Source: a virus
DNA: 27,479 nucleotides
Direction: 5' to 3' (one strand)
Virus record (IMG/VR): IMGVR_UViG_3300009175_000066
Location: 1 to 27,479 of that record
Program-made: the position numbers and the translations under genes
Notes under the pieces: model-generated
The model's database searches: none
What the model saw: only the letters and a program-made list of their open reading frames with translations
What the model was told of the DNA's origin: nothing
Shown: positions 6,155 to 8,990 of the stretch, piece after piece
How the letters are laid out: the number at the start of each line of letters is the position of its first letter
How positions within the stretch are numbered: the stretch's first letter is position 1

Positions 6155-6616
6155 ATGAGCGAGAAGATGATGGGATGGGATTCACAGATTACCGAAGCGC
6201 CGATTCTGCCGGCAACGGACGCGGCTGGGAACAAGATCGACTACGATTTTGAAATCAGCCAGTTCAAGCGCAATGCAGCGCGTGAGTTTGCGAAAGGTGC
6301 ATATACGGCTCTATCTATTGACCTGAAAATGAATCTGAAGGCCGAAGTGGATGGAGTTGTTCACGAAGACACAGCGGAGGATATGCTGATTCTGACCGTC
6401 AAGAATCAATTCAGGATCTTCCAGTACTTCACGGCCATCGGCCTTCGCGCCAAGGGTTCGGGAAACTTTGACCCGGTCAAGACGAAGGCATGGGAACCGG
6501 CAACCAACGTCGGTATGGTGGGCAAGTGCCATATCAAGATCGACGAGTTCAACGGGCAAAAGCGAGTCAAGATCGACCGCTATCTGGAACCTGCGGACGC
6601 AGGGATTGACGTGTAA
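6155..6616 (+). CDS. DUF669-like, putative OB-fold ssDNA-binding protein, 153 aa
   Basis: The start at ATG 6155 follows AAAGGGATACCA; an in-frame ATG at 6128 lies inside the previous gene. The protein opens with MGWDSQI, continues with a basic helical strand region, then NQFRIFQYFTAIGLRAKG and VGMVGKCHIKIDEFNGQKRVKIDRYLEP. The pattern of a fixed FFTAIG-like helix followed by a GxxGxxxIxxxEFNG strand pair is that of DUF669 proteins, which accompany phage AAA ATPases and ERF and are thought to bind single-stranded DNA. The match is by pattern only. Its TAA overlaps the helicase ATG. Confidence 0.6.
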   Translation: MSEKMMGWDSQITEAPILPATDAAGNKIDYDFEISQFKRNAAREFAKGAYTALSIDLKMNLKAEVDGVVHEDTAEDMLILTVKNQFRIFQYFTAIGLRAKGSGNFDPVKTKAWEPATNVGMVGKCHIKIDEFNGQKRVKIDRYLEPADAGIDV

Positions 6617-8202
6617 TGACACCACGCCCGTACCAGCAAAAGGGAAGGTTGGCCGTCCACGAGGCGTGGAAGCACTACCAGCGCGTGCTAGTGGTGTGGC
6701 CAACTGGTGCAGGGAAAACCATACTGTTCTCCCTGATTGCATCAGACGTGGTGCAACAGGGTGGCAGGGTTTTGATTCTCGCAGACCGGCACGAACTGTT
6801 GCAGCAGGCGCAGCAGAAACTTTCCTATGTAACAGGTTTGGATTCGGCGCTGGAAAAGGCCGATTCATCCGCATATGGAGAATTGGAACGTGTAACCGTT
6901 GGCAGTGTTCAGACCATGATGAACCTTTCACGCCTAGAGCGATTCCCAAGGGACTATTACACGCACATCATTGTTGATGAGTGCGACAAGTGCCTTGCTG
7001 ACTCGTATCAACGTATCTTTTCCTACTTTGAGAAAGCCAAAGTGTTGGGCGTCACGGCCACCCCTGACCGGGGTGATCTGAAAGACCTTGGACGATTTTT
7101 TGAAACCAAGGCCGACGAGTACCTGTTACCGCAGGCCATCGCAGATGATTTCCTTTGCAAGATGCGATGCCAGATGTTGCCGCTGCAAATCAACCTTAAC
7201 GGCGTTAAGTGCGGGGCTGACTTCGATGACGGAGAACTGGGAACCGCCCTTGATCCGTACATTCCAAAAATTTCCGAGGAACTTTGGGAATACTGCCAAC
7301 ATCGCAAGTTGCTCGTGTTTGCGCCTCTTTGCGCCACGGCCAGAAAAATGAGGGACGCGCTTGCGGCTGTTGGGTTCAATGCCTTCTACGCAAGCGGAGA
7401 ATACAGGGACGAATTGAAGGATTGGGAGAAGGCCGGAAAAGGCTCCTGCATGGTGAATGCCATGCTGCTCGGACGTGGGTACGATCATCCAATGATTGAT
7501 TCGGTTGCAGTGTTCCGACCAACCAAGGTGCGAAGTTTGTTTTCCCAGATGATCGGGCGCGGAACCAGAAAATACCCAGGCAAAGAATACCTATTGATCC
7601 TCGACGCCCTTTGGCTGTCCGAAAAGCACAGCCTTTGCCACCCGGCGCACCTGCTAGCCGAATCGGACGAGATTGCAGAAATAATGGTCAAGCGATCAGA
7701 GGCCACAGCAGGAGGAGAGGCCGAAGACGTGGACATGGACGCCGTGGCCGACGCCCAGGCCGAATTTCTGAAACAGCGGGAAGAAGTCTTGGCAAAGAAG
7801 CTGGCCGAACAGCGCCGGAAGAAAGCCAAGCTGGTTGACCCTCTACAATTCGCCGTATCCATCGGAGACGAATCTCTGGTTGATTATCAGCCGACCATGA
7901 AGGACGAAGGCAAGCCGGCCACGCTTGAACAGATGAAGTTCTTGGAAGAGCAGGGGCTTTCAACAACTGAGATGACGCAGGGACTTGCGCACCGGACTAT
8001 TGAGGCGTTGTCCAAGCGGAAGAACGAAGGGCTTGCACTGCCGAAGCAAATACGATTCTTGGAACGTATGGGTTTTCAGCATGTCGGGAAAATGAAACGC
8101 GGGGAGTGCGGCATACTGATTGGCCGTATCTCTGCAAACAATTGGCGGGTGCCAGATAATCTGATGCACCTGTGCGGAAACAAGGTGGTGAATGTTGCAT
8201 GA
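6616..8202 (+). CDS. Superfamily II DNA/RNA helicase, 528 aa
   Basis: The motifs appear in order: RPYQQKG (Q-motif-like) at 4-10, Walker A PTGAGKT at 29-35, DECD at 121-124 (a DEAH-box variant), TATPDR at 147-152, and motif VI QMIGRGTR at 311-318. These define an ATP-dependent SF2 helicase of the phage UvsW/DEAD family, acting in replication or recombination. A charged linker (360-410) leads to a C-terminal part with two similar segments, LEQMKFLEEQGL and PKQIRFLERMGF, likely a DNA-binding repeat common on phage helicases. TAATG overlap with the previous gene and 11-base overlap with the methyltransferase place it in the operon. Confidence 0.9.
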   Translation: MTPRPYQQKGRLAVHEAWKHYQRVLVVWPTGAGKTILFSLIASDVVQQGGRVLILADRHELLQQAQQKLSYVTGLDSALEKADSSAYGELERVTVGSVQTMMNLSRLERFPRDYYTHIIVDECDKCLADSYQRIFSYFEKAKVLGVTATPDRGDLKDLGRFFETKADEYLLPQAIADDFLCKMRCQMLPLQINLNGVKCGADFDDGELGTALDPYIPKISEELWEYCQHRKLLVFAPLCATARKMRDALAAVGFNAFYASGEYRDELKDWEKAGKGSCMVNAMLLGRGYDHPMIDSVAVFRPTKVRSLFSQMIGRGTRKYPGKEYLLILDALWLSEKHSLCHPAHLLAESDEIAEIMVKRSEATAGGEAEDVDMDAVADAQAEFLKQREEVLAKKLAEQRRKKAKLVDPLQFAVSIGDESLVDYQPTMKDEGKPATLEQMKFLEEQGLSTTEMTQGLAHRTIEALSKRKNEGLALPKQIRFLERMGFQHVGKMKRGECGILIGRISANNWRVPDNLMHLCGNKVVNVA

Positions 8203-8947
8203 GCTATCTTTATTCGCGGGCGCTGGTGGCGGAATTCTTTCAGGCAAACTCCTTGGATGGAGAACTGTTTGCGCCGTCGAACTCGACCCCTACGCCGCAA
8301 GCGTACTTGTCGCAAGACAAAATGACGGTATTCTCCCGCCCTTCCCTATCTGGGATGACGTTTGCACCTTTGACGGAAAACCATGGAAAGGAATTGTTGA
8401 CGTGGTTTCAGGCGGGTTTCCCTGCCAGGACATCAGCATCTGCGGCAAAGGCGCAGGACTCGACGGTGCGCGTTCCGGGCTATGGAAGGAAATGCGAAGA
8501 ATCATTAGCGAAGTTCAACCAAGATTCGTCTTCGTGGAAAACTCGCCAATGCTCACTATTCGGGGGGGGGGGGCAAGAGTCATTGGAGATTTGGCCTCGA
8601 TGGGCTACATGGGACGCAACTGCTGTTTGGGAGGATTCTCCGTCAATGGTTGTTCAAACGGTGAGCGCATGTGGATCTTCGCTGTTAAGGCCGACGGCAC
8701 AAGGCTGGAAAGCGTGGACGTTCAAAAACCTGTTATGTCTGGTTCGCCGGAATCATGCAGACGGCAATATACAGGAGCAATCGGCGCGATGCTTTCACAG
8801 GATGATTACACCAGAATCAAACGAGATTCTGCTTATGTGGCCGCAGGGATGGACAGACTTAAAGCCATTGGGAATGGACAGAATCCGGCAGTGGCTTCGC
8901 TCGCATGGCATATTCTGTCAGGACAACAAGCGCGAACGCTGCCCTGA
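8192..8947 (+). CDS. C5-cytosine DNA methyltransferase, 251 aa
   Basis: Motif I is LSLFAGAGGG (5-14), motif IV is GGFPCQ with catalytic Cys78, motif VI is ENS (116-118, more often ENV), the QRERIW region is represented by GERMWIF (157-163), and motif X is AIGNGQNPAVA (225-235). The enzyme transfers a methyl group from SAM to cytosine C5; a phage copy would protect its DNA from host restriction. It is short but similar in size to other phage enzymes, and the target recognition region (about 165-215) is brief. A G12 tract codes RGGGA at 124-128; related enzymes usually have about one residue fewer there. The gene is fully overlapped by another ORF. Confidence 0.85.
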   Translation: MLHELSLFAGAGGGILSGKLLGWRTVCAVELDPYAASVLVARQNDGILPPFPIWDDVCTFDGKPWKGIVDVVSGGFPCQDISICGKGAGLDGARSGLWKEMRRIISEVQPRFVFVENSPMLTIRGGGARVIGDLASMGYMGRNCCLGGFSVNGCSNGERMWIFAVKADGTRLESVDVQKPVMSGSPESCRRQYTGAIGAMLSQDDYTRIKRDSAYVAAGMDRLKAIGNGQNPAVASLAWHILSGQQARTLP

Positions 8948-8990
8948 GTCAGACTTCATGCGTACTTACGACGATGATTTTTTGCCATAA
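8199..8990 (+). CDS. Overlapping +1-frame ORF across the methyltransferase gene, 263 aa
   Basis: This frame opens at ATG 8199, which overlaps the helicase TGA as ATGA, the coupling used throughout this genome, and stays open for 263 codons, ending 43 bases after the methyltransferase stop. The product contains SYLYSRALV, TPTPQAYLSQDKM, SWKTRQCSLFGG, WPRW and GWTDLKPLGMDR. From memory these segments resemble phage proteins annotated as hypothetical and linked to C5 methyltransferases; I could not check this. The methyltransferase motifs read in +1 produce these same segments, so the resemblance may reflect frame-shifted annotations elsewhere rather than a true second protein. Translation is unproven. 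Confidence 0.4.
   Translation: MSYLYSRALVAEFFQANSLDGELFAPSNSTPTPQAYLSQDKMTVFSRPSLSGMTFAPLTENHGKELLTWFQAGFPARTSASAAKAQDSTVRVPGYGRKCEESLAKFNQDSSSWKTRQCSLFGGGGQESLEIWPRWATWDATAVWEDSPSMVVQTVSACGSSLLRPTAQGWKAWTFKNLLCLVRRNHADGNIQEQSARCFHRMITPESNEILLMWPQGWTDLKPLGMDRIRQWLRSHGIFCQDNKRERCPESDFMRTYDDDFLP
8562..8573 (+). repeat. G12 homopolymer inside the methyltransferase gene
   Basis: Twelve consecutive G residues follow ATTC at 8558-8561. In the methyltransferase frame they encode Arg-Gly-Gly-Gly with the next codon GCA; in the +1 frame they encode four Gly. Loss of one G would join the methyltransferase N-terminal half to the +1 frame, which is open to 8990. Gain of one G would lead to a stop after about 20 codons. 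It could also be an assembly error. Confidence 0.9.

Follow-up and report, generated by a model that had tools for sequence, protein, structure and literature searches.

We propose that a split C5-cytosine methyltransferase has both of its subunits encoded by one stretch of viral DNA, and we put the probability of this reading at roughly 0.7. The window, that is, the whole stretch of DNA analysed, is a virus record of 27,479 bases. Frame 0 would give the large catalytic domain with motifs I-VIII and X (here called alpha). The +1 frame, which starts a few bases after the alpha start, would give the second subunit (here called beta) with the small-domain elements absent from alpha. Beta would bring a variable target-recognition segment and motif IX, which are placed between motifs VIII and X as in an ordinary enzyme. 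After translation from nearly coincident starts, alpha and beta would bind each other and assemble into the active enzyme, and beta would set its specificity. Such an enzyme would methylate the phage DNA, probably protecting it against host restriction. The features of the locus in the window are as follows.

6616-8202, plus strand: helicase gene upstream of alpha and beta (phrog_16 DNA helicase, E = 2.7e-72); its TGA overlaps the beta ATG.
8182-8185, plus strand: AAGG, Shine-Dalgarno-like in sequence, 6 nt upstream of the alpha ATG and 13 nt upstream of that of beta.
8192-8202, plus strand: twin starts in two frames, ATGttgcATGA; the beta ATG follows 7 nt after the alpha ATG.
8192-8947, plus strand: alpha, the C5-cytosine methyltransferase frame, 251 aa, motifs I-VIII and X (PF00145, phrog_363, tblastn relatives).
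8199-8990, plus strand: beta, the overprinted +1 frame, 263 aa, starting at ATGA over the helicase stop (open frame, stop depletion, synonymous constraint, phrog matches).
8411-8431, plus strand: motif IV of alpha, GGFPCQD, including the catalytic Cys (translation).
8660-8680, plus strand: motif VIII-like GERMWIF of alpha (translation, alignment-based segmentation).
8679-8801, plus strand: beta reading between VIII and IX (SLLRPTAQGWKAW...RCFHR), proposed as target-recognition segment, a role suggested by family-wide conservation that is higher in beta than in alpha.
8802-8852, plus strand: motif-IX-like block of beta (MITPESNEILLMWPQGW; profile comparison with canonical C5-methyltransferases).
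8852-8896, plus strand: motif X of alpha (DRLKAIGNGQNPAVA; translation; the segment is 62% conserved in alpha).

A first-pass annotation of this DNA had described a +1 frame open from an ATG at 8199 to 8990 and starting by ATGA at the helicase stop. Both points hold: the product has 263 aa, the stop codon ends at 8990, and the ATGA at 8199-8202 overlaps the end of the helicase gene. The overlap is complete, as the open frame of beta covers the whole alpha gene.

The same annotation considered such a long open frame unlikely by chance, and the stop counts agree. Alpha has no +1 stop in the window, while 5.0 were expected from synonymous shuffles (P = 0.0006; P = 0.00015 when the null uses the window's own codon usage). 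Furthermore, alpha is alone among the 22 window genes tested in having a stop-depleted +1 frame, and the 21 others fit the null. In the clade of the window, all 84 genes lack any +1 stop from the start region to the gene end, with mostly about 4-6 expected in each. The shuffle test covered 88 genes including these 84, and we found 10 +1 stops in total against 404 (within-gene shuffling) or 608 (locus codon usage) expected. All 10 fall in three distant genes (L007-L009). Meanwhile, the +2 frame of the 88 genes contained 1186 stops versus 990 expected, a slight excess, so the effect is frame-specific. Most relatives were drawn from IMG/VR by alpha peptide patterns, the exception being L001-L010, which were drawn by a beta query. 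Most of them were thus not picked for their beta frame, and no close relative with a stop inside the +1 frame was found in the IMG/VR clade. By comparison, eight canonical phage C5-methyltransferases with motif IX in frame showed no depletion (112 +1 stops, 119 expected).

Three simple explanations were rejected on these counts. Chance openness of beta is contradicted by the stop counts in the window and in the 84 clade genes, and genome codon bias by the codon-usage null and the 21 other window genes. A general property of C5-methyltransferases is contradicted by the canonical enzymes.

The change at synonymous sites, an analysis that the first-pass annotation had suggested, gave a consistent picture. 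An earlier test of amino-acid conservation was uninformative alone, because the +2 frame likewise exceeded its null, and it was replaced by a comparison with control genes. At fourfold-degenerate sites of conserved residues, the identity excess over expectation was 0.14-0.38 in alpha and 0.05-0.24 in control genes of the same contigs. In addition, the fourfold-site identity of alpha was higher than that of the controls in each protein-identity bin from 0.5 to 0.8. Synonymous change in alpha is thus reduced relative to matched control genes. Neither of the two observations that the annotation had named as contrary to an overprinted gene, stops in the +1 frame of close relatives or unreduced synonymous change, was made in the clade. 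Openness of the +1 frame together with low synonymous change, without such an effect in canonical C5-methyltransferases, indicates that beta is a selected gene. We regard it as almost certainly a real gene, and the sequence comparisons suggest that it is translated. As both signals recur over a diverse family, the overprinted gene pair that the annotation had offered as one alternative is well founded.

The start sites of alpha and beta nearly coincide. The alpha start codon lies exactly 4 nt ahead of the beta ATG in 61 of the 84 viral loci (NTGAATGAG), and 45 of these 61 have a Shine-Dalgarno-like word upstream. In the window, the AAGG at 8182-8185 may act as ribosome signal for both alpha and beta. 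In a second group of loci, the beta start is found 27 nt further upstream (ATGTCATGG...), and the protein begins with MSWLIS all the same. This upstream start lies outside the conserved core of alpha, at a place where alpha itself is not conserved.

It is hardly credible that beta is non-coding and that an RNA or DNA signal, or a bias in codons or dinucleotides, keeps the frame open and synonymous change low. Synonymous conservation does lift the similarity of the +2 frame too. However, the effect is frame-specific, removing +1 stops and leaving the +2 stops slightly in excess, and it is absent from the 21 other window genes and the canonical methyltransferases. Furthermore, the beta start codon is conserved.

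Alpha contains the SAM-binding motif I, the catalytic PCQ motif IV, the ENS motif VI, motif VIII, and motif X. It matches phrog_363 (E = 2.2e-48) and PF00145 (E = 2.7e-21), the latter over profile positions 4-163 of 324 only. Residues 5-124 match HhaI, and a structure search confirmed the methyltransferase fold (HhaI, Z = 12.4). The first-pass annotation credited this frame with all core motifs. This is right for I-VIII and X, but motif IX is undetectable in alpha: profile comparison with canonical motif IX found none in the segment between VIII and X (P = 0.66), and none in the +2 frame (P = 0.98). In beta, a motif-IX-like block (LNPxWxEWLMGWP) aligns exactly on HhaI KLHPRECARVMGYP with a score of 22.3. 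The match has P = 0.0034 in the clade and P = 9e-4 with distant members added, and none of 200 column shuffles reached the score, although the match, at 14-18 columns, is short and in absolute terms weak.

The conservation of the two frames changes along the gene. Over motifs I-VIII, identity is 68% in alpha and 42% in beta. In the VIII-X segment the order is reversed, with 45% in beta (Z = 7.9) and 36% in alpha (Z = 3.8), and in the motif X segment alpha is again ahead (62% vs 45%). The higher conservation of beta between VIII and X argues for placing the putative recognition segment in beta. In addition, one to several variable WPTP modules precede the motif-IX-like block and differ among otherwise similar genes. 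From this pattern, we infer that the modules may be exchangeable recognition elements. They are conserved as +1 amino acids, which is a further point against a non-coding +1 frame, but the module comparison is biased towards beta because the modules were chosen by beta patterns, and it serves as illustration only. For instance, L028, L066, L075, and L084 are near-identical genes in which WPTP modules between VIII and IX are present, absent, or exchanged, like tandem recognition modules. A marine phage methyltransferase (L195, 1316-2569) has an open +1 stretch of 418 codons with about six WPTP modules.

The placement of the missing segment in the +1 frame between VIII and X would also fit programmed frameshifting, in which one chain would pass from alpha into beta after VIII and perhaps back again before X, and beta would never be made alone. 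A run of 12 G at 8562-8573, within the overlap of alpha and beta, could allow slippage. However, this run precedes motif VIII, and a conserved slippery site was not noticed on unsystematic inspection. Moreover, the +1 frame is open upstream of VIII as far as a conserved ATG with MSWL, and a product of frameshifting would have no use for this. We consider this explanation quite improbable. The same G run occurs in the near-identical contig L001; it is possibly a slippage or phase-variation site joining alpha to beta, or a sequencing artefact.

It is also conceivable, but unlikely, that beta is translated and yet unrelated to the methyltransferase, having originated by overprinting as an accessory protein with a separate task, such as a regulator, an anti-restriction factor, or a DNA-binding partner. 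Beta has no match among Pfam families, PADLOC families, or solved structures, and conservation extends to its N-terminal half, for which methyltransferases have no counterpart. Furthermore, beta is retained in some prophages despite a stop in alpha. Such alpha-frame stops with intact beta in several prophage loci count against a strict pair, which does not predict them. Against an accessory protein stands the motif-IX-like block, which is found in beta at the expected place and is missing from alpha; this suggests a second subunit and not an unrelated protein. In addition, beta always lies within an alpha gene, and no free-standing beta was seen among the loci examined. Modelling and profile searches also weigh against the two-subunit reading. 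AlphaFold2 modelled beta alone with low confidence (pLDDT 57), and the beta part of an alpha/beta chimera remained below pLDDT 50. When such chimeras were searched against Pfam, the PF00145 match was not extended by the beta segment.

Among known enzymes, the closest arrangement to the proposed two-subunit methyltransferase is that of M.EcoHK31I, whose small subunit is reportedly encoded in another frame within the gene of the large one. M.EcoHK31I requires two polypeptides, and motif IX is present only in the smaller (Lee, Kam and Shaw 1995, cited in PMC3404938); the large subunit has motifs I-VIII and X, and the predicted TRD was placed there (PMC3404938). The phage pair differs in three respects. 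First, beta overlaps the entire catalytic gene and starts nearly at the alpha start. Second, the recognition segment is apparently in beta, whereas the TRD of M.EcoHK31I is predicted in the large subunit. Third, many phages carry the pair, and no restriction partner is apparent.

The C5-methyltransferases M.EcoHK31I and M.AquI naturally consist of two polypeptides, and monomeric C5-methyltransferases can reassemble from fragments when the split lies between VIII and the TRD (PMC3404938). Thus, C5-methyltransferases tolerate splitting. M.AquI is naturally split like the proposed pair, but its small subunit carries both IX and X (PMC3404938), while motif X of the phage pair stays in alpha. A second reading frame concealed in a phage methylase gene is also known from the ShiLan domain, an out-of-frame HNH endonuclease within an actinophage DNA methylase (PMC11855218). 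However, ShiLan is an inserted homing endonuclease, whereas the overlap with beta covers the enzyme core, and a Pfam search with the +1 product gave no HNH family up to E = 1. In the literature searched, which covered only some subscription papers, we found no description of the alpha/beta overlap. Compared with known split enzymes, the pair stands out by its full-length overlap, its twin starts, the recognition modules apparently carried by beta, and its broad spread in phages.

The pair is widely distributed. A tblastn search with alpha found relatives in 1238 phage records. The annotated frame varies among phages: the alpha frame is annotated in Salmonella phage S9-5 and Acinetobacter phage ABMM1, and the beta frame is annotated as 'hypothetical protein' in Pseudomonas phage phPA-G (CDS0044, XAI65183.1) and Vibrio phage 1.236.O (gene 59, AUR97051.1). 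The phage hypothetical proteins to which the first-pass annotation had likened segments of this frame therefore exist as +1-frame CDS, and both also match beta-type phrog families. Both frames are present in phage S9-5 as well as in phPA-G. Beta of the window matches phrog_1008 and phrog_35493, and beta-type proteins in general match phrog_1008 (labelled 'DNA methyltransferase'), phrog_26627, and phrog_35493. The overlap with a methyltransferase gene in another frame is unrecorded in these families. A family of +1 readings has thus been annotated as separate proteins, which was the second alternative of the annotation, and our results support both alternatives together.

Beta-type frames also occur in 80 bacterial genome contigs (Pseudomonas, Acinetobacter, Pantoea, Akkermansia, Nitrosomonas, and others), and alpha is fully open in 70 of them. 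These contigs were chosen by beta patterns, so the openness of beta there is not independent evidence.

More distant relatives share a part of the +1 frame. We compiled 12 non-redundant phage methyltransferases (from Bacteroides, Porphyromonas, Mycobacterium, and marine phages) with 36-62% identity to the queries. From codon 58 onward, 10 of the 12 have no +1 stop, where about 49 would be expected. Codons 4-55, the N-terminal third, contain 24 +1 stops in all 12 genes versus 24.5 expected. It is therefore the C-terminal two thirds of beta that are shared widely, and the N-terminal extension (MSWLFSQALVEEY...) is a feature of the window's clade. It should be noted that the Bacteroides and marine methyltransferases are not a clean outgroup control, because they, too, carry a +1 frame of this type, though a shorter one.

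On balance, we lean slightly towards a broader proposal, in which a large share of the 'orphan' C5-methyltransferases of phages and prophages would be double-coded two-subunit enzymes with catalysis in frame 0 and exchangeable recognition modules plus motif IX in +1. Each frame would be ancestral for one half and newly invented for the other, and the arrangement would be old and common to phages of Proteobacteria, Bacteroides, and actinobacteria.

If the two-subunit reading is true, cloning only the annotated frame of many phage methyltransferases now listed as single chains would give no active enzyme, and a function could be assigned to many 'hypothetical' phage proteins. The product of the +1 frame would then be the place to look for the methylation specificity of such phages. 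In addition, few same-strand gene overlaps of full length in DNA phages would be as long or as widespread, and these pairs would offer a test case for one enzyme divided between two frames of the same DNA.

Several loci depart from the usual pattern. An alpha-frame stop, with beta open through that point, was found in the bacterial contigs L091, L108, L125, L147, L156, and L167 and in the viral locus L245; in L156, the beta frame also closes, roughly a dozen codons short of where the match ends. These loci could be decayed prophages, sequencing errors, or cases in which beta was kept without alpha. In L163 (3001-3984), one open frame reads as beta at first (74% identity over 88 aa) and then as methyltransferase, probably through an indel at the junction from mutation or assembly error. 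Finally, L177 (2305-3064; Mycobacterium phage Llama genes 74 and 75) has two adjacent overlapping CDS, both annotated as DNA methyltransferase, and its +1 match lies in two pieces.
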